DNA from: Eubacteriales bacterium
Lineage (GTDB): Bacteria; Bacillota; Clostridia; Peptostreptococcales; Anaerovoracaceae
Assembly: GCA_028692105.1 (NCBI GenBank)
Contig: JAQUYC010000001.1
Location: forward strand, 1 to 64,000
DNA: 64,000 bases
Reading direction: 5' to 3'
Both the position numbers and the translations under genes were made by a program. This document shows, piece after piece, positions 6,719 through 23,466 of this stretch. The notes beneath the pieces were generated by a model. It did not search any database and was not told the origin of the DNA. It saw only the letters and a list, made by a program, of their open reading frames with translations. Position 1 is the stretch's first letter, and the number at the start of each line of letters is the position of its first letter.

Positions 6719-8890
6719 CTAACTTATCTGCCTTTCCAGCTTTTTATAAAGCATATGTCCAAGCTCGAAAATGAGTATGCCAATAATTCCGATTGCTATT
6801 CCAAACAGCAGAGAATAACCGGTTCTGGCAAATCCAAGGTAAAGCGGTGTCCTTATATGCATGAATGTATTAACTACAGAGGTCATTCCAATGACAGAAG
6901 CAAGCCCGAATAGTATCGGCCAAAGCTTAAACCTGCGAATTGAAGTATAAACAAGCATCATGACCGCAGGAAACGCAAAGAGAAATTCTTTACTTCTTGG
7001 TCTGGCGATGAGGTTGTCTTCAAGGAGATTTCTGAAAATCATCTCCATGCCGGAAACCTGTATAGAAGAGTCATGTCCTGTCCGTTCGATATAGTAGTAA
7101 CCGATACCCAGCAGAACAATTCCAAGAAGAACCATCCAAATTTTGATGCTTGCATTCATCATATCTCTTAGGTCATTGTATTCCAGATTGCCGGGGTATC
7201 TTTTACTTTCTCCGAAACCGTAATATGCCAGATATACCATTATAAAGAACATTAACGGCAGCAGCTGGGCTAATTTAACCCCTCTGAATATGTCAATTTC
7301 AAGCATATAATTCACCGAAGAAATCGGTGCGGCAGTCATAAGACCCCCAATAAGAGATATCAAAACGCCTATTATAAGTATCAGTATTCCGCTGCCGACA
7401 ATCTTCGGCAGCCGTTCCTGTCGATTTATCGTATCTGTAAGCTCCTTGCTCTGTCTCACTATAAACAATGTTGCAATACTTGGGAAGATTACAGCTGCGG
7501 CAAAGGATGTGATCAGCTCCGCATATCCCGGCATCACTGCAAATGCGCCGGCAGCTCCAAGTGCTCCCAAGGCAAACAGAGCCACCTTTAATCTCCTGCT
7601 GATCGGCAATATACTTCGAATCAGCAACACAGCAGCAGCCACGCAGCCGAGTGCCATGGCAAGCTTCGCCCAGAAGTTCACCTTATACTGATCTATTACG
7701 GTAGCTTTGTTTCCCAATTCTATACCGTGCTTTGCAAGCCTGTTTTCAAGGTTTGCAAACATAGTTTTATACTCATCAAGATCAGTCACATAAACATGCT
7801 GATCCTTGAATTCTTTTATCGGTTTAAAATAAATAAGCCTGACATTGCGTTCAACCACCGCTCTGAACAAAGTGTTTTCAATCTCTTTTGCTCCTTCATA
7901 ACCATAATACTGATATCGGTTCTGTATATAATCCCAGACACTGAAAATTCTGATTGCATTATAACCGGTGCTCTTGACGATATCATTTACCCCAAATTGG
8001 AGAATATTCTGCAGCTGAGTGGTATTCTCGATCAGACCGATAGTCACATTATTATCTGTAATATATTCTTTTGCTGTTTCGATGCCGTCATCATAACCGA
8101 TTACTCCTTCTCCGCCGACGATCATGTATTCCGGCACCTTGTCCAATTTTTCGTAGCCTTTGATTACAGCAGCAGCATATTTTGTGTCATTCCAACCTGT
8201 ATAACTTGCGGTTCTTGGTATGATGTCCATTCCGGCATCTTGGATGGTTTTTATCCTGTAAGGAAGCATTCCGTAATTGACGTACATGAGCTTTGAGCTG
8301 ACAATCTCATCCTTTTCTACAAACCCCTTCTTGTCTGAGCTCATATATTTGTACTTCTCAGAATAAAGTGTCTGTTTCGCTGTTCCATCCAGCACAATAT
8401 ATCCCCCGTCGCCGGTTTCTTTTATAAAATAATTTTCCGGCTGATAGCGTTCTTTCACTCCATCAGAAATAAAATTAAATATATCCTTCGAAGCCGCGTC
8501 GATCAATAAGTCGTATTTATCATAGCCATGAATAGTTAACTCGGTAATAAAATCCTCAGGATAATCAGACTGCCAGTCCGCATCCTTCATGATTAAATCC
8601 ATGACGGCTGCATCAACCGGAAAATCCGTATTCTCTATCAGGCTTACCATACTTTCTTCAGAAAGCCCGACTTTATTAATTCCCATTTTCTTGAATTCCC
8701 TGAGCCACCATAAGATATCATGCTCTGATTGAGCTGCCATGGCTTCTATTTCGTTATAGTCCAATACGATGTCGTATGTATTATTCCTGTTCTCTACAGA
8801 AAATCTGCCCCCGATAATAATAAATGAAACTATTACAGCGACGGCAATAATGAAAAGTAAAATTTTGTTTTCCTTGAATAATAGCTGCAT
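6719..8890 (-). CDS. DUF5693-like multi-pass membrane protein
   Basis: Long N-terminal extracytoplasmic domain after one TM, then many C-terminal TM helices; position next to csaB and tagA-like genes matches DUF5693 proteins. Confidence 0.65.
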   Translation of the reverse strand: MQLLFKENKILLFIIAVAVIVSFIIIGGRFSVENRNNTYDIVLDYNEIEAMAAQSEHDILWWLREFKKMGINKVGLSEESMVSLIENTDFPVDAAVMDLIMKDADWQSDYPEDFITELTIHGYDKYDLLIDAASKDIFNFISDGVKERYQPENYFIKETGDGGYIVLDGTAKQTLYSEKYKYMSSDKKGFVEKDEIVSSKLMYVNYGMLPYRIKTIQDAGMDIIPRTASYTGWNDTKYAAAVIKGYEKLDKVPEYMIVGGEGVIGYDDGIETAKEYITDNNVTIGLIENTTQLQNILQFGVNDIVKSTGYNAIRIFSVWDYIQNRYQYYGYEGAKEIENTLFRAVVERNVRLIYFKPIKEFKDQHVYVTDLDEYKTMFANLENRLAKHGIELGNKATVIDQYKVNFWAKLAMALGCVAAAVLLIRSILPISRRLKVALFALGALGAAGAFAVMPGYAELITSFAAAVIFPSIATLFIVRQSKELTDTINRQERLPKIVGSGILILIIGVLISLIGGLMTAAPISSVNYMLEIDIFRGVKLAQLLPLMFFIMVYLAYYGFGESKRYPGNLEYNDLRDMMNASIKIWMVLLGIVLLGIGYYYIERTGHDSSIQVSGMEMIFRNLLEDNLIARPRSKEFLFAFPAVMMLVYTSIRRFKLWPILFGLASVIGMTSVVNTFMHIRTPLYLGFARTGYSLLFGIAIGIIGILIFELGHMLYKKLERQIS

Positions 8891-8971
8891 CCCCTATACC
8901 CTTCCTTTGATTGTAAATAGCTATTTACGATTATACCCTTTTTTGTTTCTTTAGTAAATACAGTATAAAAA

Positions 8972-9059
8972 AAGTGGCTGACGCCACTTCCGCTTATCGA
9001 ACAGGAAACGATTTTACCTATTCGATAATAAAGCGAAAAGATTTGAAATCTTTTCGCTT
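8972..9059. repeat. Three successive inverted repeats (aagtggc/gccactt; ttatcgaa/ttcgataa; aagcgaaaagattt/aaatcttttcgctt)
   Basis: Read directly. The 14-bp perfect palindrome at 9031-9059 lies just past the stop of the 9071-9499 gene and is a likely terminator stem. Confidence 0.7.
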
Positions 9060-9070
9060 TTATAATTAAA

Positions 9071-9499
9071 TTATTGTAAAGAATAGGGCCCGCGTATCAT
9101 AACAAAAATATCGGTTAAAGCGTAGATCCCTCTTCCGTCATCCCTCGGGACAAGCAGCAGATGATTCAAACTGACATTCTGTCCGGTGATCAAATCCTGG
9201 CCGGCTGTAAGATCAGATACGCCGTTTGCGCCGTTGTCGATTGCGGATGCCTCACCGCTGCGAAGAATGATTTCTGTTCCCTCCCCGCCAAGCACTGACT
9301 GGCCGGCTTTGACTTCTACCACGGTATATTCGTTTGGAGCGCTGCCATTTCCTCCATACTTTGCTATCTGACTGTCTACATAGCTTTTCGTTACAAGCGG
9401 GTCATTTTCCGAACCGGGTGAGTCAGCTGCAGCTGACACTGCCACAGTCACAGCAAATACTGAGAAAATGATTGCCAGAGCTGCTGCGATTCTTTTCAT
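9071..9499 (-). CDS. Secreted protein of unknown function
   Basis: Internal start at 9499 has RBS AAGGAGG; the N-terminus MKRIAAALAIIFSVFAVTVAVSAAA is a signal peptide. Confidence 0.7.
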   Translation of the reverse strand: MKRIAAALAIIFSVFAVTVAVSAAADSPGSENDPLVTKSYVDSQIAKYGGNGSAPNEYTVVEVKAGQSVLGGEGTEIILRSGEASAIDNGANGVSDLTAGQDLITGQNVSLNHLLLVPRDDGRGIYALTDIFVMIRGPYSLQ

Positions 9500-9578
9500 T
9501 TGTTCCTCCTTGCTTGTTAATTTCACGTTATGCTTTGTTGCTAATTCGTCTTCCGCAAAATTTACAGTGCAAACTTAA

Positions 9579-9938
9579 TCAGAAGTCAATTATCCCTAAG
9601 CTGATTGTCAGTGCCTCATTTACTTCTGTTATAATATCTTCTTCCACTTTTCCGATTTTTTCTTTTAACCTCTTTTTATCGATCGTTCTCAATTGTTCCA
9701 TCAGAACCACCGAATCTTTGTTCAATCCATGACCCGGCGCACCAATTTCAACATGAGTAGGCAACTTTGCCTTATTGATCTGTGAGGTTACCGCTGCTAC
9801 GATTATCGTAGGGCTGTATTTATTTCCAATATCATTCTGAACGACAAGGACCGGCCTAACTCCGCCTTGTTCGGAGCCAATGACGGGACTCAAGTCTGCA
9901 AAATAAATATCGCCTTTTTTAACTATCAAGTCATTCAC
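9579..9938 (-). CDS. mazF: Type II toxin MazF/EndoA (NdoA) endoribonuclease
   Basis: [48 protein letters not shown] start at 9938. Confidence 0.95.
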
Positions 9939-10101
9939 TCTCCACTAAATAGATTTCATAGCCTTCAAGATCTCTTCTATCCTTTTCAAGCCCTTCTTCC
10001 GACAGGCTTACATTGAGCAGTCCCATTTCCTGATAACCGGTTTCCATTTCTTTTATTATTTCTATTGTTAAACCATTTCGGTTTTTTGTAAAATCAAACA
10101 T
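9931..10101 (-). CDS. Short (56 aa) MazE/EndoAI-like antitoxin lacking an evident RHH domain
   Basis: Hand-translated: [66 protein letters not shown]; stop overlaps the mazF GTG start by 8 nt. Confidence 0.75.
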
Positions 10102-10192
10102 TTGTTCACCTCAATATTTTTCATGCAACAAATAGATATACAACGATTCTGTCTTCTATTATAATTGCTGATACGTATTAGTGTCAAATGCC

Positions 10193-11077
10193 TTATTTCT
10201 CCAATGATTCCAGGTCATCTAAGGTTCTCTTGATAGCCAGAGCCATCATGCTTGCTATGTCTGAAGCAATTAAACCATACTCTCCCATAAAGTCTTTCGC
10301 CATGTCGCCTGCCAGTCCATGCAGATATACTCCTGCTATTGCCGCAGCTTCTGATGATAAACCCTGCCCTAAAAGAGCTGCAATGACGCCGCTTAAAACG
10401 TCTCCGCTTCCGGCTGTCGCCATGCCGGGATTTCCTGTCGTATTAATATATGTTTCCCCGTCGGGTGTTGCCACAACACTGCCGGCACCTTTAAGTACAG
10501 TTACAGCTCCTGCAGCGGCTGCCAACTCCCTTGCTGATTGTAGCCTGTCCCGGTTAATTTCAGCGGTTTTTCGGCCCAAAAGTTTAGCAGCCTCACCGGG
10601 ATGCGGAGTTATAATTATATCAGCCTTAGCTTTCTTTATAACATCCAAATCACCCCGAAGAAGGTTTAACCCATCCGCATCCAATAAAACGGGCTTATCC
10701 GTCATCTCTAAAATATTCCTGATTAATATACCGCTCTGTTTCTCAACCCCCAACCCGGGCCCGACGGCAATGGCCGAATATTGCGTCAGATCCTCAAGTA
10801 AACGCTCTCTGGGTATACAGGTTGCTTCCGGCACCCCGATCTGCAGAATGGGGAAAAGCGCCTCCGGTATGGATACTCTGACAAGACCTGCCCCTGTTCT
10901 CAATGCGGCTCTTGCGCATAACACAGCGGCTCCTGCCATTCCCACCGATCCGGCAACGATTAAAATTTTTCCGCAATCACCCTTATGTATATCCTGTTTA
11001 CGCTTCTTAATAAAAGTATTGACAAAAGCTTCCGTAATTAAACCATCTTTTTTCATTTTCTTTTTTCCCCTTATCAA
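10193..11077 (-). CDS. nnrD: ADP-dependent NAD(P)H-hydrate dehydratase
   Basis: HKGDCGKILIVAGSVGMAGAAVL, PHPGEAAKLL, NTTGNPGMATAGSGDVLSGVIAALLGQG; an internal start may be the true one. Confidence 0.93.
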   Translation of the reverse strand: MIRGKKKMKKDGLITEAFVNTFIKKRKQDIHKGDCGKILIVAGSVGMAGAAVLCARAALRTGAGLVRVSIPEALFPILQIGVPEATCIPRERLLEDLTQYSAIAVGPGLGVEKQSGILIRNILEMTDKPVLLDADGLNLLRGDLDVIKKAKADIIITPHPGEAAKLLGRKTAEINRDRLQSARELAAAAGAVTVLKGAGSVVATPDGETYINTTGNPGMATAGSGDVLSGVIAALLGQGLSSEAAAIAGVYLHGLAGDMAKDFMGEYGLIASDIASMMALAIKRTLDDLESLEK

Positions 11078-11125
11078 ATGGATATTTTTGCTTTGGCGTC
11101 AGCTATAATATGGGGTTTTTCTATA

Positions 11126-11225
11126 CTCGAATGGGTATTCCAAGGTGAAGTCGTGAAACCTTTTACTGCCTTAAGTGCGAAGCATTTTAAAGGCGGCAGT
11201 CTTCACCTTGGAATACCCATTCGAG
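11126..11225. repeat. 25-bp perfect inverted repeat with a nested inner hairpin
   Basis: Arms 11126-11150 and 11201-11225 (ctcgaatgggtattccaaggtgaag / reverse complement); inner actgcc (11165-11170)/ggcagt (11195-11200). Confidence 0.9.
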
Positions 11226-14803: not shown

Positions 14804-15865
14804 CTATTTCTCATAAATATGATTGAATATATTTTCAGCAAAACCCTTTGCTCTCATCTCAATCTCATTAAGTTTCAAGATGCTTCCTGAACTATTTGCT
14901 GTTTCCATTATTGCAAAACGGCTTGGCAGGATGAAGGTCTTATTCATATTAAGCCCGCTGATCAGCTGCTGAGCCACAATATCTCCTCCGCTGTAACCGG
15001 AAACGATAATGCCGAATAAATATTTATCATAGAACTTCGTCATTTTAAGCAATGCGGTGAGGCGATTGATCATGGCGGCAAGGTTGGCGCTGATTGCATC
15101 ATTATAGTTCGGACAGATCATTATTAGTGCATCGCAGTTGATTAATGCAGGATATACCTGATCTACGATGACTCCTCCGTAAATGCAGCCTGCTGAGTCA
15201 CCAAAATGCAGACAGGTTGTATATGGACACCCGATGCAATCCATTACGGTTCCGTTTCTTAAGGAAATTTCAGTAAGCTCACAATTATTCAGATGTCCTT
15301 TGACAAGATTCCAGAGTTCCAATGTATTTGACTTCTTAAAATGGCTGGCATGCAAAGCTAAAATCTTGGGATTTTTCTTTTTTGGCGGGTTAAAATTCAT
15401 TATTTGTTCGACCAAAGCTCTCCCCGAGTGAATATATGCCCCGAAGGTGTCTACATCCAATATTTTTGCCACAGTATTATAATTGTCCAGAGATTTTGTC
15501 CCCTCCACCAAGGGCTTTCCGGGGAAAGTGCATCCTGAAAGGTTGGCACTGAAGGCCAGCTCTCTCCCGACGGATTTTGTAAAAAGCTCACTGTTTCCGT
15601 CAATGATGATCCCTCCGACACTTCCTTCAAAACAATTCGGGTTCAGTCTGATCCTTTTTAGGATCCCATAAAGTTCTATATTGATTCCGGATTCACCCAA
15701 AGAAATCGCAAAGAGTATTCTTTTATTCCGAAAGTGAAAAAACTCATCAGCTGTAGTAACCGTTTCATAGGAATATCCCTCGAGGCTACTTTCCAATATT
15801 TTGTTGAGCCGTTTCGTTTTGATCTGTTCTCTGCAGTGCGGTCTTATAACTATAATGTCAAACAT
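14804..15865 (-). CDS. Flavodoxin/NADPH-dependent FMN reductase-like protein with extra N-terminal domain
   Basis: C-terminal half: KILALHASHFKKSNTLELWNLVKGHL..., CIGCPYTTCLHFGDSAGCIYGG, PNYNDAISANLAAMINR; the N-terminal ~165 aa are not recognised. Confidence 0.65.
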   Translation of the reverse strand: MFDIIVIRPHCREQIKTKRLNKILESSLEGYSYETVTTADEFFHFRNKRILFAISLGESGINIELYGILKRIRLNPNCFEGSVGGIIIDGNSELFTKSVGRELAFSANLSGCTFPGKPLVEGTKSLDNYNTVAKILDVDTFGAYIHSGRALVEQIMNFNPPKKKNPKILALHASHFKKSNTLELWNLVKGHLNNCELTEISLRNGTVMDCIGCPYTTCLHFGDSAGCIYGGVIVDQVYPALINCDALIMICPNYNDAISANLAAMINRLTALLKMTKFYDKYLFGIIVSGYSGGDIVAQQLISGLNMNKTFILPSRFAIMETANSSGSILKLNEIEMRAKGFAENIFNHIYEK

Positions 15866-15910: not shown

Positions 15911-16924
15911 TCAGACAATCCGTTCCAGTTCCTTATATGCGTATTCAATTCTACGGAATAAGGCCTCCGGCAGAGAAATAGATTCAAGCTCCACACCTGA
16001 TGCTGTCATTCTGTTTCTGGCACCTAAAAACACTCCTCCAAGATAGGTCGAACTGTAATGCCATTCCCCTCTCAATGTCAGCAGCAGTGATATTACACCG
16101 GAAGAAAGTGCAGGAGCTATATATGGTTTATAACCTATTTCCCTTGTTCTTATATTTGCCTTAACCGTCAGATCTGTAAGTTCTTTTGACAGTTTATCAT
16201 CGTAATGCTCAATGCTGTTGGCGATCACTAAATCATTGCCATGCGGTCCAAACGCCCGGCCTTCGGTAAGAAATGACCGAAACCTGTCATCTCTTTTTGC
16301 ATAATAAGCAGCTCGGCTGTTCATGACACCAAGACCGTAGCCTTGAATCTGGACTGGCTTTAATCCATTTCCGTCGATTATACCCGCCTCATTCCTGTTA
16401 CTCTCTAAATAAGCGGCTCTACATAAGGGATCTACAGGATCAGATACCACGGCAAAAAGACCGCCGAACCGCAGTGTCCTTGCTAATACAGCATATTCCT
16501 TTATGATCTCCCTATTCGCTTCGTATTGAATCATTCTCACATCTTTAACATCTGACCCTACGGAAGGTACTGATTTTGATGCACAAAAAATAAATAGATC
16601 ACAGTTAAAAATTTCATCTTTTTCCAGGATTACGACCTCCGGAAGCCGATCATAATCCCAAGGATACGCCGTCTGATTCATTTCATATTCATAGCGCTGT
16701 TCTGCATATCCGTTGCTGAATATACCTATGCGGGATATTACATCTCCTCCCATAAGCTTTAAACCGATTAAAAGAGTTCCTCCTACATCCCCCAGCCCTA
16801 TTATATTGACCTTTTTCTTTCCATTCAGTGAGAATGGGGAGTTCGTATTGCACGTCACGGTCTTCTCTTGTTTATCATCTATAAGATCATCCAGAAAATA
16901 TATCTTCTTATTCTCTTTTTCCAT
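15911..16924 (-). CDS. Rossmann-fold lactate/malate dehydrogenase-like protein
   Basis: VNIIGLGDVGGTLLIGLKLMGGDVISRIGIFS dinucleotide-binding motif; VVSDPVDPLCRAAYL, GPHGNDLVIANS. Confidence 0.6.
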   Translation of the reverse strand: MEKENKKIYFLDDLIDDKQEKTVTCNTNSPFSLNGKKKVNIIGLGDVGGTLLIGLKLMGGDVISRIGIFSNGYAEQRYEYEMNQTAYPWDYDRLPEVVILEKDEIFNCDLFIFCASKSVPSVGSDVKDVRMIQYEANREIIKEYAVLARTLRFGGLFAVVSDPVDPLCRAAYLESNRNEAGIIDGNGLKPVQIQGYGLGVMNSRAAYYAKRDDRFRSFLTEGRAFGPHGNDLVIANSIEHYDDKLSKELTDLTVKANIRTREIGYKPYIAPALSSGVISLLLTLRGEWHYSSTYLGGVFLGARNRMTASGVELESISLPEALFRRIEYAYKELERIV

Positions 16925-16964: not shown

Positions 16965-19900
16965 TTATATTATTATGTTTTCAAGACGTTTTAGTATTTC
17001 AATGTCGCCTGCAATATATTCGGAAGGTGCCATATTGATATCATAACTCATATCGCCTCCTTTATCCGGATACCTGTTTGACAGAATTGCTTCAGCTTGC
17101 CTGTTTAAAGTCAGTTTTCTTTCATATACGATTTGATATTCTTCTTCAATGGTTCTAAGAATGTTCTTTGCATTTACCAGACAGGTCATAGAAAAATCAT
17201 ATAATGCTGCCTTAGGTGTATCCATTAAAAAGTTTGGCGCAACATAAGGAAGAATAAGATTTATGGATGGAAGAAATCCTGCGCCTTGGCGCACGTCCCT
17301 CAAAACGCTGTCTCCCCCGATAAAGGGATACATGTTGGATTCTACGAACCATGATCGCAAATTTGGAATAAAATAAACGCTTTCAACCTCTCGGCCTTGT
17401 AGTGTCATCAAATCCTTTCCCCTGCCGGAAAGTAATCCAACGATAATTTTGCTCACCTGTAAGTTCTCCTGCCTGAACAGGGGGTCAAGCTTCTTAAGCC
17501 GGTATCCTTTATGAAGCAGGTCATCTACAAGAAACACAGGCCTTTGGAAGGATTTTATTGTCCTGATCTGATAGACCAACGGAGAGTAATTGGGAAATTC
17601 AGTAATCTGAAACAGTGTAATTGAAGGTTCAAACCGTTTATCGGTATGAAGTGACTTGGTGACAGTATTCGGAACAACCATACCGCTCAGAATTTTTCCG
17701 AATGGAACACACATATATTCTCCTAATTGTCTGACTGCAAGGGGTTCTTTGGGGACATTGTTGCTTTTGGTTATCAAATCTACGATTCTATGATGCATAA
17801 CTTTTGAATCAAATGATAAAATCAGATTTCCCGGGTAAAGCTTTGTTAAAGAGTACTGCATTCTCCTGTGCGCTTCTTCTATTGCATTCAGAACTCTCAC
17901 TCTCCCGTTGAATGGTTCCTTCACGATCGTGCCTATATCCTTATGCAAAGTAACGGGGTATTTCATATCAACGGCATATATATGATCTTCGGCTCCATTC
18001 ACTTTAAGCATCTGAAAGCCCTGTCTCTTTAATAAAGAAGAAAGCCTTGCATCTATTTCTCCGATATGGCGGTGATAGATGGCAAAGGTAAAACCGTTCT
18101 CCAGGCAATATGCAAGAGCTTCTGTCAATACGAGCTGATCTGTATTATTTATTGATGCAGTATTTGAATAGGCTATGCCGCCCAAAACAACTATCTTGCC
18201 TGACGTTATCCCCCGTATATGCGAAGCAAGATTGATGCTGCCGAATTCTTCAAACAGTTCCGACATATTAACTTCATGGAAAGTAGCAATCGCAACCGGG
18301 ATGTCATTACTGCCGCCGTCTCTTATCAATATGGCATTTACGCTATTTCTTGCAAGATAAGATTTTATGTTCTCCCTAATATTTTGCTCCTGCAGCAGCA
18401 ATGTTTTGGTCAGTTCATCGATCAGCTGCCCGTTAAATTTCTTAATGATTTCAAACCTTATCTGACGTGTACTGAATACGTGTTTATATTGCGGCTCTCT
18501 TAAATAAAGGCCGTTATCATAGATATAGCGTTCAGCTAATGGTTCAATCAGGTTTGAGATGTCACGGTTATAATCTATGTTGTCTCTGATCTGTGTTGAG
18601 CTTATTTCTTTAAGATATGGCGGAAGCTTAAGTTCGATCAGCTTTCCGGTCAGAATCGAAGTATTATGACTTTCTATATTACTTTTTTGATTTTCTGCAT
18701 CCATGGTTCGTTTGAATATAATATGATGAAACCCATGGATGGAATGCTCCTGCGGAGGAGCTTTATAACTCGAAGCATTCTTAATAACATCGCTTCCCAC
18801 GACTATATAAATTTCCCTGCCCGGAAACAGTTCTTTCAGTTTTCTCAGATCTTCCGGGTTTGAAAGGTTGATCGGGATGTCATCAGGGAAAAGATAAACA
18901 TCCTTTTCATCCGCTTCCGACATACTGATTATTTTCCTGCGAATTAGCTTAGGCTGTGTTTTTTTCGACCAGGAAAACTCATCGATAGCTAAATACACCT
19001 CATAACCCAGGTCTCTGATTTCCTTAACGATACCCTTATGACCCAGTGAAAACGGATCAAATGTTCCGGGAAAAAAGGCAATTTTATCAATTATCGGGAT
19101 GCAGATCTTTTTATTCAGGAAAAGGTAATCGGATAAAAATCTATAAATATGATTGAGAGAAGCTGCAGCGTTGAAGAAAGACAGAGCAGTTTCCTTTTGG
19201 TCTGTAATCAGAATAAGCATCTTTTTATACATTTCTTTAAAAAAAGAATATTTATCTTCCAATGTTAATTTTGAGGAGCCAAAGAGAAATTGACCTATCA
19301 CTAAAAAGGCTTCCTGACTGATCATATAGTTATAATTTGATAAACCCTTAAGGATTAAGCCTATGATTTCATCTCTACGCTTGATATAAACGTCTTCACT
19401 TTCATGAAACCGGTCTTTGTATTGAGAATAATTCTGCAGCATAATACCAAGCGTATTAAGCGTAACTGACCCTATACGCTCATTCGTGCTGTTCAGAAGC
19501 CTTCTGAAATCGTTCATCAATTCGTCCAGTTCATTGGGGTGCAGATGCAATGCCAATACCCCCAAATAGTCAGGAAGATATTTTGAAAACTCGTATTGCC
19601 CTATTTCCAAGCCTTTACTAAGTTCCACAGCTATTTCATTCCTCTCCGGAGGAGTCAGCTTGGGAATAATGGAAAGCAGCGCTTGACCTGCTGTGTGCCG
19701 TACTATTACTCGATCACTTACCTTGATCAAATTTGAAAAGTGTGCCGCAACTTGAAGCAGCTGTTTATTTTCCCCCAAGAGTATCTGATTCAGTAAAAGC
19801 TCTATATTTACAACCTTTATTACCCATGGTGTTGCAGCTTTTAAGTTTTCCAGGAATATTTCTGATATGGCATTTGCATCCTGATAAATTGTATACGCTA

Positions 19901-21827
19901 AATTTCTTTCATCTTTCACAGGAAGCTTAAGATCCCTGAATATTTCATTTTTTAAATATCTTATGCTCAACACATCATCTTGACTGGAATATTTCAAACA
20001 TGAGTTGAATAAGGCTAAAGCTTCCTTTTTGTGATTATCACTTTCGGAAAGATACTTTATGAAACGATGCACGGCAATTTGAATTTCCAGCGAGTCTCTG
20101 GAAGCCGTTCTGGTCGTAAAATCCATGAGTACATGAATATCTTCATCGGTGCACAGTGGCAAAGGCAAGTCAAGTGTTGAGTCCAACAGGATAAATGCAG
20201 TTGAATCAATCACTTCGGTATTTTCATAAAACCGAAGAAATGATTTCAAATAATTTTCACGGTCCTCTTTTTTGCATCTTTTTAGTGTGGCTCTCAGAAC
20301 AAACTTCAGAGTATAACCCAGCCATCTCTTATGCTGGTCTGTTATCTTATGATCCGGGAAAATGATAGCTTCAAGATATTTCTCCCACAGTCTGATACTT
20401 GTTATTTCATCCTGCTCTCTTATAGCACCTTCCGGCAGCTCCTTTCGATATTCCTCATCATAATGTACTATGATGTTTCCTATCAATTGTGCACTCTGCC
20501 TTCGAATATCTCCTTCTCTATGCATCAGAAGTTCATATAGAAAGTTCAATGTCATCATCTTCTGCTTTTGTGTCATGTAAGTAAAATATTCTGCAAAGAT
20601 GTTCATATAAGCTCTGATATTTTTCCAGTTGCTTTCACTTCTTGCCGCCTCCAAAACATCACCAAAAGCAGTTTCACTGTTAAACTTGTTCATGACGTCA
20701 ATATTGTGCCGTATCGCAAGGTTTTTAAGACTTCTGACTGCTTCATCCGAAGTATATAATGCCGGATCTTTGCTTTCCCGATTCCTAAGATCCCGTGTGG
20801 TCAAATCCGTATTGACTCCGAGGTCTATCATAAAATCTTCAAAGTCCTTCAGTTTATTATAAACCTTAATGTACCTGTCTCGTTTTGCATTATCCACATT
20901 GTCAAGCTTGTTGAGTATAACATCAAAAGAATCCTTAAGATCATAATATTTAACGATTTCTCGGCCTTGTCGGTCATTTATGCTTTTAACCCTGAAATCT
21001 GAGTATATTAAAACAAGAGATTCTGCTGACAGGTTTTCAAGTTCCAAATCCCATGTTGAATGATTCGAGGCTATATGTCCAATAGTCGGCATACCATTTT
21101 TTTTAAAATATTTATCTGTGTAATAATAATGCAGATAAGGGATTCGCTCGGCTTCTTCCGGCTTACAGCCATACTTCCCTATATCGTGCCCTATCGCAGC
21201 GCCGGAAACAAGCGCAAGGTCAATAGGAACACCTGCTTGAAACAGCTGTCTTCCTATATGCAATGAAATATAATGGACACCGCTCACATGAGACAAGGTC
21301 TTGTATCTCGTGATTTCCTGGCCTATTCTCATAAATTCATAGATATAACTTTCTCGGAAAAGTCGGATAAGATGTCTGTATTCTTCAGCTGATTCAAAAT
21401 TATTTGTCTCTTGTTCCGAAAGCATCTCAATATGAATGCCGGGGTCAAACGTCTTGTGTTCTGATTCATAGTGCAAAAATGTTCTCAGAACCTCCAGATA
21501 AAATAGTCCGCCCCTCTCACTTGCGGATGTAGTTATGTCGGTGATATTTTCCGGGAATATACGGTTAAGAACGTAATCATAGGTATATGACAGCCAGCCA
21601 TTTTCAGGTTTTTCGGAGATAGAATTCATTATTGACTCGCAAACTTTCAATACGTCTATACAGCTAACCGTGTCTTGCTCAATGATGAGGCTGATTCTTT
21701 CTATCCAATCATCTTTTTTAATAAGAAGAAGCATCTTCCTTTTAGACAGCCTGATTGTTCTTAAAAAATCCTTTTCTGTCAGATTGCTTACAAGTTCTCT
21801 ATACGCCTGCTCAATTCTCTTCGGCAT
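16965..21827 (-). CDS. Giant multidomain protein: HD domain, repeat region, NadD-type nucleotidyltransferase, acyltransferase-like and phosphoribosyltransferase-like regions
   Basis: ORF given to 21851, but RBS GGAGGT precedes ATG at 21827. Motifs: AAIGHDIGKYG (~residue 218), FFPGTFDPFSLGHKGI (~930), VFLVDDLLHKGYRLKKLDP PRPP-loop-like (~1440). Confidence 0.75.
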   Translation of the reverse strand: MPKRIEQAYRELVSNLTEKDFLRTIRLSKRKMLLLIKKDDWIERISLIIEQDTVSCIDVLKVCESIMNSISEKPENGWLSYTYDYVLNRIFPENITDITTSASERGGLFYLEVLRTFLHYESEHKTFDPGIHIEMLSEQETNNFESAEEYRHLIRLFRESYIYEFMRIGQEITRYKTLSHVSGVHYISLHIGRQLFQAGVPIDLALVSGAAIGHDIGKYGCKPEEAERIPYLHYYYTDKYFKKNGMPTIGHIASNHSTWDLELENLSAESLVLIYSDFRVKSINDRQGREIVKYYDLKDSFDVILNKLDNVDNAKRDRYIKVYNKLKDFEDFMIDLGVNTDLTTRDLRNRESKDPALYTSDEAVRSLKNLAIRHNIDVMNKFNSETAFGDVLEAARSESNWKNIRAYMNIFAEYFTYMTQKQKMMTLNFLYELLMHREGDIRRQSAQLIGNIIVHYDEEYRKELPEGAIREQDEITSIRLWEKYLEAIIFPDHKITDQHKRWLGYTLKFVLRATLKRCKKEDRENYLKSFLRFYENTEVIDSTAFILLDSTLDLPLPLCTDEDIHVLMDFTTRTASRDSLEIQIAVHRFIKYLSESDNHKKEALALFNSCLKYSSQDDVLSIRYLKNEIFRDLKLPVKDERNLAYTIYQDANAISEIFLENLKAATPWVIKVVNIELLLNQILLGENKQLLQVAAHFSNLIKVSDRVIVRHTAGQALLSIIPKLTPPERNEIAVELSKGLEIGQYEFSKYLPDYLGVLALHLHPNELDELMNDFRRLLNSTNERIGSVTLNTLGIMLQNYSQYKDRFHESEDVYIKRRDEIIGLILKGLSNYNYMISQEAFLVIGQFLFGSSKLTLEDKYSFFKEMYKKMLILITDQKETALSFFNAAASLNHIYRFLSDYLFLNKKICIPIIDKIAFFPGTFDPFSLGHKGIVKEIRDLGYEVYLAIDEFSWSKKTQPKLIRRKIISMSEADEKDVYLFPDDIPINLSNPEDLRKLKELFPGREIYIVVGSDVIKNASSYKAPPQEHSIHGFHHIIFKRTMDAENQKSNIESHNTSILTGKLIELKLPPYLKEISSTQIRDNIDYNRDISNLIEPLAERYIYDNGLYLREPQYKHVFSTRQIRFEIIKKFNGQLIDELTKTLLLQEQNIRENIKSYLARNSVNAILIRDGGSNDIPVAIATFHEVNMSELFEEFGSINLASHIRGITSGKIVVLGGIAYSNTASINNTDQLVLTEALAYCLENGFTFAIYHRHIGEIDARLSSLLKRQGFQMLKVNGAEDHIYAVDMKYPVTLHKDIGTIVKEPFNGRVRVLNAIEEAHRRMQYSLTKLYPGNLILSFDSKVMHHRIVDLITKSNNVPKEPLAVRQLGEYMCVPFGKILSGMVVPNTVTKSLHTDKRFEPSITLFQITEFPNYSPLVYQIRTIKSFQRPVFLVDDLLHKGYRLKKLDPLFRQENLQVSKIIVGLLSGRGKDLMTLQGREVESVYFIPNLRSWFVESNMYPFIGGDSVLRDVRQGAGFLPSINLILPYVAPNFLMDTPKAALYDFSMTCLVNAKNILRTIEEEYQIVYERKLTLNRQAEAILSNRYPDKGGDMSYDINMAPSEYIAGDIEILKRLENIII

Positions 21828-21904
21828 GTTATTATACCTCCAAAGTGTCATACGAAAAGTGTTGCTATGGCTTTGTTTATATTAAGTGTATTACCCTTAT
21901 TATG

Positions 21905-22122: not shown

Positions 22123-23466
22123 ATGTCAAGTATCGTACAGCAATACATCGATATTGCAAAAAAAAGAAACCCTGGCGAATCAGAATTTCACCAGACCGTA
22201 GAAGAGGTTCTACATTCTATCGAACCGGTTCTGGAAAAACATCCTGAATATATCAAAGCAGGCCTTATCGAAAGATTAATTGAGCCGGAAAGAGCAATTA
22301 TCTTCAGAGTTACTTGGGTTGATGATGCCGGTAAAGTACAGGTTAACAGAGGTTACAGGTATCAATTTAACAGTGCGATTGGGCCTTATAAAGGTGGTAC
22401 ACGATTTGCACCAAATGTAAATCCCAGTATTATTAAGTTCTTAGGATTTGAGCAGATTTTCAAAAATGCTTTAACCGGACTTCCTATTGGTGGAGGAAAA
22501 GGCGGAGCGGATTTTGATCCAAATGGTAAATCTGACGGCGAAATCATGAGATTCTGTCAAGCTTACATGACTGAATTATATAGACATATCGGCCCGCAAA
22601 CAGATAGCCCTGCTGGCGACCTTGGTGTTGGAGCAAGAGAAATTGGTTATCTATTTGGTCAATATAAGAGAATCGCTAATATGTATAACGAATCAGTTAC
22701 AGGAAAAGCGGTTGTTTATGGCGGACTGAACGGAAGAACAGAAGCTACAGGTTACGGTATCGTATACTTTGCAAATTGCATGTTAGAGGCAAATAACGAA
22801 AAAATGGCTGGCAAGAAAGTCGTTGTTTCAGGTTTTGGAAATGTAACATGGGGTACTGTAACAAAGCTGGATGAGCTTGGAGCTAAGGTTATTGCATTCT
22901 CAGGTCCTGACGGATATATCTTAGACGAAGCCGGTGTTACAGGTGAAAAGATTGCTGCTCTTCTTGAACTAAGAAATAGCGGTAAAAACATCTGCGCACC
23001 TTATGCAGAAAAATACCCTGAAGCTAAATTCTTCGCAGGAAAGAAGCCTTGGGAAGTTAAGGCTGATTTATATATCCCTTGCGCAATGCAGAACGACATT
23101 CACTTAGAAGATGCCAAAAAAATCGTAGCGAATGGTGCTAAATTCCTTTGCGAAGGTGCTAACATGCCTTGCACAAACGAAGCCATTGATTATTTAATGA
23201 GCAATGGAATAATTTTCGGGCCTTGTAAAGCTGCTAATGCTGGCGGTGTTGCTTGTTCATGTATTGAAATGGGTCAGAATGCAGGACACACTGTATTTTC
23301 ACTTGATCAGGTGTATGCACAGTTAAAAAACATTATGGTTAGTATACATGATAGTTCTGCTGCTGCTGCTGCAGAATATGGTCTTGGATACAATCTGCTT
23401 GCCGGTGCTAACATTGCCGGATTTAAGAAGATTGCAGAAGCTATGATGGCTCAAGGTATTGTATAA
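22123..23466 (+). CDS. gdhA: NADP-type glutamate dehydrogenase
   Basis: GPYKGGTRFAPNVN, GLPIGGGKGGADFDPNGKSDGE, GPQTDSPAGDLGVGAREIGYLFGQYK. Confidence 0.97.
   Translation: MSSIVQQYIDIAKKRNPGESEFHQTVEEVLHSIEPVLEKHPEYIKAGLIERLIEPERAIIFRVTWVDDAGKVQVNRGYRYQFNSAIGPYKGGTRFAPNVNPSIIKFLGFEQIFKNALTGLPIGGGKGGADFDPNGKSDGEIMRFCQAYMTELYRHIGPQTDSPAGDLGVGAREIGYLFGQYKRIANMYNESVTGKAVVYGGLNGRTEATGYGIVYFANCMLEANNEKMAGKKVVVSGFGNVTWGTVTKLDELGAKVIAFSGPDGYILDEAGVTGEKIAALLELRNSGKNICAPYAEKYPEAKFFAGKKPWEVKADLYIPCAMQNDIHLEDAKKIVANGAKFLCEGANMPCTNEAIDYLMSNGIIFGPCKAANAGGVACSCIEMGQNAGHTVFSLDQVYAQLKNIMVSIHDSSAAAAAEYGLGYNLLAGANIAGFKKIAEAMMAQGIV

Follow-up and report, generated by a model that had tools for sequence, protein, structure and literature searches.

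Gene Organization of the Locus

The window, i.e., the whole stretch of 64,000 nucleotides that was analysed, carries on its minus strand a gene for a giant multi-module protein (16965..21827), which was defined by ORF analysis and is called G here. The frame is a single uninterrupted ORF on the minus strand (16965-21851), open up to an upstream ATG at 21851. The ATG at 21827 is most likely the better start, giving a protein of 1,620 aa, because it is preceded by a GGAGG (21837..21841, minus strand), which was found by inspection of the sequence nine bases upstream and within the longer ORF, and which is probably the ribosome-binding site. The residue numbers of G used below (1–1628) are counted from the upstream ATG at 21851.

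G is at the head of a three-gene operon with the order G-R-F on one strand. R, assigned to the LDH/MDH superfamily by profile and PDB matches, is a protein of 337 aa located 40 bp after G (15911..16924, minus strand), and F, assigned to the FMN-reductase fold by FMN_red matches, is a protein of 353 aa located 45 bp after R (14804..15865, minus strand). A purine-rich stretch lies ahead of the ATG in both R and F. Neither of these co-conserved downstream genes was part of the original prediction. On the other side, a glutamate dehydrogenase gene (22123-23466, plus strand) is divergent from G; the gene for this enzyme recurs on the upstream side of G in several related loci (L031, L032, L033, L037, L038, L050 and L085, for example), and this neighbourhood is local to some lineages.

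Module Architecture of G

From the N-terminus to the C-terminus, all on the minus strand, G consists of a poorly conserved helical region known from the predicted structure (module 1, residues 9–150, 21402..21827), an HD metal-dependent hydrolase domain recognized by profiles and conserved ligands (module 2, residues 151–345, 20817..21401), a HEAT/ARM-type helical solenoid found with AlphaFold and Foldseek (module 3, residues 346–915, 19107..20816), a NadD-like adenylyltransferase recognized by profiles and motifs (module 4, residues 916–1122, 18486..19106), a weakly conserved GNAT-fold module based on the AlphaFold model and Foldseek (module 5, residues 1123–1309, 17925..18485), a type I phosphoribosyltransferase (PRTase)-like module based on the model, Foldseek and PF00156 (module 6, residues 1310–1560, 17172..17924) and a predicted helical tail (residues 1561–1628, 16968..17171). 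The five-module fusion (HD, solenoid, NadD-like, GNAT and PRTase) described by the original prediction, which gave no strand, has support for every part from profile matches, AlphaFold models and Foldseek. For the GNAT and PRTase stretches, formerly called "-like", the folds themselves are backed, and the motifs quoted in that prediction are all present in G.

The conserved parts of G are its three catalytic-type modules: the pairwise identity is 0.58 in HD, 0.58 in the NadD-like module and 0.51 in PRTase, compared with 0.34–0.44 in the solenoid, 0.28 in GNAT and a mean of 0.235 in module 1, which has zero invariant columns. The residue counts at the active sites given below refer to 103 full-length sequences, 98 of which are distinct in the tree columns. 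Searches of PDB with the whole profiles of the N- and C-terminal halves of G gave matches at chance level only, no whole-length family model was present in the libraries searched, and no description of G was found in the full-text open-access literature. The original prediction did not recognise G as a characterised enzyme, and no characterised family covering it was found here.

The HD Module

The ligands H188, H222, D223, H241, H264 and D285 of the HD module each occur in 103 of the 103 sequences, H241 being assigned by sequence order only, and the motif GHDIGKYG occupies residues 221–228. According to the review PMC8177086, H..HD..H..H..D marks a dinuclear HD site, and the HD module of G, having the six-ligand set, reads as dinuclear-type. 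In the profile search, a single G sequence gave a weak HD match, and the Foldseek search with residues 1–915 left the HD part unresolved. When the HD regions were isolated, PF01966 matched 34 of 44 members and NF045665 matched all 44 (best 1.4e-7). NF045665 represents the DVU_1551-family NTP transferase, and no NCBIfam model matches this region better than its C-terminal part; however, G reaches 25.5 bits where the cut-off is 315, and the match is limited to the HD part.

The parallel with YqeK drawn by the original prediction did not hold for the HD module. TIGR00488, the model of YqeK, is absent from the NCBIfam matches of the 44 HD members, so YqeK identity was rejected, and hhalign of the G HD against YqeK gave an E-value of 0.0034 with a probability of 9%. 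The canonical pair is encoded elsewhere in the same genome: NadD at G000:C15:10888-11472, above the TIGR00482 cut-off, with yqeK (C15:11603-12106) adjoining it downstream. The TIGR00488 matches of this genome are on contig C15 (the yqeK beside nadD) and weakly on C22, with none on C9.

The Solenoid and the NadD-like Module

The AlphaFold model of residues 1–915 has a pLDDT of 90.7 and is almost entirely helix, and in Foldseek it matched HEAT/ARM solenoids, including importins and PP2A-A. For the module that follows, the single-sequence search of G gave PF01467 at 2.1e-8 and TIGR00482 at 1.1e-13; the latter matches 44 of 44 members (best 3.9e-16) along the whole length of the model, and the score of G (51.7 bits at full length, 57.6 bits for the module) is under the curated cut-off of 112.45. 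The best PDB sequence match of the module is PRK08887/VPA0413 (PDB 3h05, 4.7e-8).

The motifs of this module are FPGTFDPF(S/T)LxHK, DEFSWSK, VVGSDV and ISSTxIR, with GTFDPFSLGH at residues 929–938, and the residues invariant in the 103 sequences are P928, G929, D932, H938, D957, F959–K963, G1019, D1021, S1085 and R1089. The GTFDPFxLxH, GSDV and ISSTxIR motifs are shared with NadD (TIGR00482), and its (H/T)xGH and SSTxIR motifs are present with S/T at 935 and with H938, S1085 and R1089 in 103 of 103. Unlike NadD, G has the family-specific DEFSWSK, a Ser/Thr at residue 935, where the HxGH motif of NadD has its first His, and a Tyr (102 of 103) at the Trp of NadD eight residues past the GxD aspartate, which we take to be the nicotinate-stacking residue. 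In CoaD, the first His position of HxGH is occupied by Thr. Gly937 is replaced by Ser in 69 of the 103 sequences. The conservation of the HD and HIGH-type residues, which had been put forward as a check on the fusion, is the opposite of degenerate active sites, as the HD ligands and H938 are invariant.

As a canonical nadD sits elsewhere in the genome, G was rejected as the housekeeping NadD; the nadD-yqeK pair is kept separately, and therefore G is an extra enzyme. No link was seen between the presence of G and de novo NAD synthesis: 9 of 29 relatives with G have NadA, as do 12 of 32 without it.

The GNAT and PRTase Modules

The AlphaFold model of residues 1120–1628, built on an alignment of 61 diverse orthologues, has a pLDDT of 91.7. 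For the GNAT fold, Foldseek against PDB gave matches from 2.2e-6, including 4ua3 and GCN5. Among its 187 columns, 5 are nearly invariant, no conserved glycine pattern of the (Q/R)xxGx(G/A) acetyl-CoA loop is seen at 1230–1245 in the 103 sequences, and Pfam Acetyltransf_1 matches 3 of 61 members, weakly. Given the poor conservation of the module and the absence of the usual acetyl-CoA loop pattern, acyl transfer is doubtful; we read the module as structural or repurposed.

The PRTase fold was matched in Foldseek to uracil/xanthine PRTases (about 7e-5, probability 1.00), and PF00156 matches 23 of 61 members. The motif VFLVDDLLHKGYRL is at residues 1439–1452, within which the PRPP loop reads LVDDLLHKGYR, with D1443 in 103 of 103 sequences and D1444 in 102; no recognisable pyrophosphate loop was found in the module. 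That is to say, it is like uracil PRTase 6wn8 and xanthine PRTase 1y0b in fold and in the VDD of the PRPP loop, and unlike them in having about 14% identity, HKG in place of the usual TTG and fusion to other modules. The view that one polypeptide could make and break a nucleotide fits the conserved HD, NadD-like and PRTase residues.

Operon Partners R and F

In 64 of the 67 loci with room for it, R comes next after G in the same orientation, with F after R in 64; in a 65th locus (L107), the R frame overlaps G owing to a long ORF start. Of 61 relatives, 29 have G, 28 have R and 26 have F, these counts coming from related genomes, so that their independence is overstated. In the G genomes without R or F (G005, G034 and G058), the gap falls at contig ends, and neither R nor F was found in the 32 relatives without G.

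R matches LDH/MDH proteins in PDB (8.6e-7) and by hhalign (E 8e-8 over 282 columns), and its Pfam Ldh_1_N score is 12.1 bits for the window's R against a cut-off of 27, with the best member at E 9.9e-9. Like L-lactate and malate dehydrogenases, R keeps the equivalents of Arg109, Arg171 and His195 (LDH numbering); unlike them, it has Asp for Asn140, does not keep Asp168 and, in the window, is under the Pfam cut-off. R is, judging by these residues and matches, a divergent relative of lactate/malate dehydrogenases. A search of the window's genome at 1e-10 gave no canonical LDH/MDH N-domain. In many homologues of R, ~80–100 additional residues form an N-terminal domain (MYYY...; e.g., L077:14805-16034) that is missing from the window's R.

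F is matched by FMN_red in 22 of 22 members (best 2e-23), and its cysteines C210, C213, C218 and C227 are invariant with the spacing CX2CX4CX8C; F probably carries an Fe-S cluster. It resembles the NADPH-dependent FMN reductases and Fe-S flavoproteins in the FMN_red match and differs from them in its extra N-terminal domain and cysteine spacing. The PDB search with the whole profile of F gave zero matches.

Among flanking genes, no cluster other than G, R and F occurs in more than 16 loci. These neighbourhoods bear on a rather unlikely reading of G as a sensor or regulator, whose catalytic-type domains would bind nucleotides and report the energy or NAD state, the solenoid relaying this to R, F and others. 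Type I PRTase folds do serve as sensors in PyrR and PurR, and the large HEAT/ARM-type solenoid and the GNAT module without a conserved acetyl-CoA motif would suit such a role. However, the HD and NadD residues invariant in 103 sequences are catalytic ones, beyond those for binding, and no conserved transcription-factor or kinase partner was seen near G in the neighbourhood comparison. The solenoid has also a bearing on the modification of nucleic acid or protein, in which nucleotidyl or phosphoribosyl groups would be transferred to RNA ends, tRNA or protein held by it, as proteins or nucleic acid are frequent ligands of HEAT/ARM solenoids. This is improbable: profile searches of G gave no RNA-binding or modification domain, and the co-occurring R and F have small-molecule redox folds.

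Distribution and Evolution

Of 297 genomes in the order, 148 carry the PRTase module of G, with nearly all frames about 1,600–1,660 aa. G is not a chance ORF, since full-length orthologues of this size span the order. Among 399 genomes drawn across the phylum, 8 have this module, and at least 550 loci for a relative were counted in species-representative genomes, including Anaerovorax, Anaerotignum, Sedimentibacter, Oscillibacter and Pseudoflavonifractor; many of the genomes compared are metagenome bins. The tree of G, made with FastTree only, broadly parallels taxonomy. It shows at least one likely transfer, that of G034 within Oscillospiraceae, and losses must be common. A bin named Spirochaetes (Cu122P1bin9) carries a relative with F on the opposite strand (L041), either by transfer or by misbinning.

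Phages and viral contigs gave zero matches, and the lone "plasmid" match is a 2.6 Mb replicon of Acetoanaerobium noterae, where the gene is unannotated; an origin as a phage or plasmid gene was rejected on these grounds. No link with sporulation was seen, Spo0A being present in 17 of 29 relatives with G and 18 of 32 without. A second full-length G without R/F occurs in G046 (L010/L136, G046:C1:126506-131359), and several further genomes of the order, e.g., G465, G513 and G523, have two copies.

Split Paralogues

In one family of the order, G has been duplicated and split complementarily. Two shorter G proteins each are present in G059 and G565 of one genus and in G488 and G519 of another (L119:6437-10087, L120:8166-11393, L178:5638-9240 and L181:4443-8603; also L177 and L182–L184). 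The A-type paralogue keeps the HD ligands, has damaged NadD motifs, and no R/F was found alongside; that of G519 runs off the contig, and its visible part is HD only. In the B-type paralogue, HD is absent, the motifs of NadD and PRTase are retained, and R lies alongside, with F beside it in G059 and G565, the other B-types being at contig ends or truncated. In all 4 genomes found with the HD-less form, the HD form is also present. In a third genus, G466 has an intact G with R/F and an A-type copy. Because the genomes are related, the split paralogues count as one or two events in evolution rather than five.

These paralogues suggest an HD activity that can work on a diffusible product, with NadD+PRTase as the unit tied to R/F. 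The PRPP-loop acids are also kept in the A-type (HD-form) paralogue of G059, for which reason the PRTase module may not be purely a synthetic step. In G703, a break separates the HD–solenoid part (858 aa) from the NadD–GNAT–PRTase part (913 aa) as two frames overlapping at the solenoid/NadD boundary (L179:5894-8467 and 8448-11186); it is either a fission or a frameshift.

Possible Function of G, R and F

The evidence on G, R and F is computational throughout, comprising the module folds, the conserved catalytic residues, the operon, the obligate co-occurrence and the separability of HD from NadD+PRTase; the direction and order of the reactions, the substrate, the role of the scaffold and the Fe-S cluster are what we infer. 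The reading we tentatively favour, at somewhat less than an even chance, is that G would be an enzyme with several active sites on a HEAT-type scaffold, forming one pathway with its redox partners R and F. The type I PRTase module would convert an aromatic base and PRPP into a mononucleotide, which the NadD-like module would adenylate, giving a dinucleotide; product that is wrong or in excess would be hydrolysed by the dinuclear-type HD module, in the way that YqeK serves NadD. R, as an NAD-dependent LDH/MDH-like enzyme, and F, as a flavin and probably Fe-S protein, would act either in preparing the precursor or in using the product. In NAD salvage, a PRTase followed by an NMN/NaMN-type adenylyltransferase leads from base to mononucleotide to dinucleotide. 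Proofreading of NAD synthesis has been reported for a YqeK HD domain in fusion with NadD (PMC9426524). Because of the salvage logic and this precedent, a dinucleotide-building enzyme with its own disposal is favoured, and its main rivals are sensing, discussed above, and salvage or repair. Counting against the favoured reading are Ser/Thr at residue 935 and the frequent Ser at 937, the HKG of the PRPP loop and the unrecognisable pyrophosphate loop, the PRPP-loop acids in the A-type of G059, the changes at Asp168 and Asn140 in R, and the missing link between G and NadA.

In salvage or repair, HD would cleave a damaged or foreign dinucleotide, PRTase and the NadD-like module would rebuild it, and R/F would repair the redox state of the base. 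HD domains are known to act as metabolite-damage hydrolases (PMC9426524), R and F have redox-type folds, and housekeeping nadD and yqeK are retained, which means that the main route to NAD does not run through G. However, the synthetic-type NadD and PRTase stay with R/F while HD can move away, and we consider repair unlikely.

The dinucleotide-building reading has a close counterpart in the Gram-positive NadD–YqeK fusion or cluster (PMC9426524), where an NMN/NaMN-type adenylyltransferase is likewise joined with a dinuclear-type HD hydrolase, likely for synthesis plus disposal. G differs from that fusion in that HD comes first, with a 570-residue solenoid before the NadD-like module, in the added GNAT, PRTase and R/F partners, in an HD without a TIGR00488 match, and in its coexistence with canonical nadD-yqeK in one genome. 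All modules of G fall into known superfamilies, and a counterpart of the HD+NadD pairing is already known; as far as these searches reach, none of the PRTase, the solenoid or the two obligate partners has been described in such a system. The three conserved nucleotide-reaction sites and two obligate redox partners point to a pathway missing from metabolic maps, and G-R-F looks like an undescribed nucleotide-cofactor pathway, in which G is large, strictly conserved and present in half of an order and many gut Clostridia. A bolder version, to which we give a low chance, is that G-R-F makes and turns over a new NAD-like dinucleotide cofactor with a different base, used by R/F; if true, this would make the system categorically new and place the cofactor in a sizeable fraction of the Clostridia of gut and sediment. 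As nature provides both an HD form and a NadD+PRTase form, the division of labour is testable with existing proteins.
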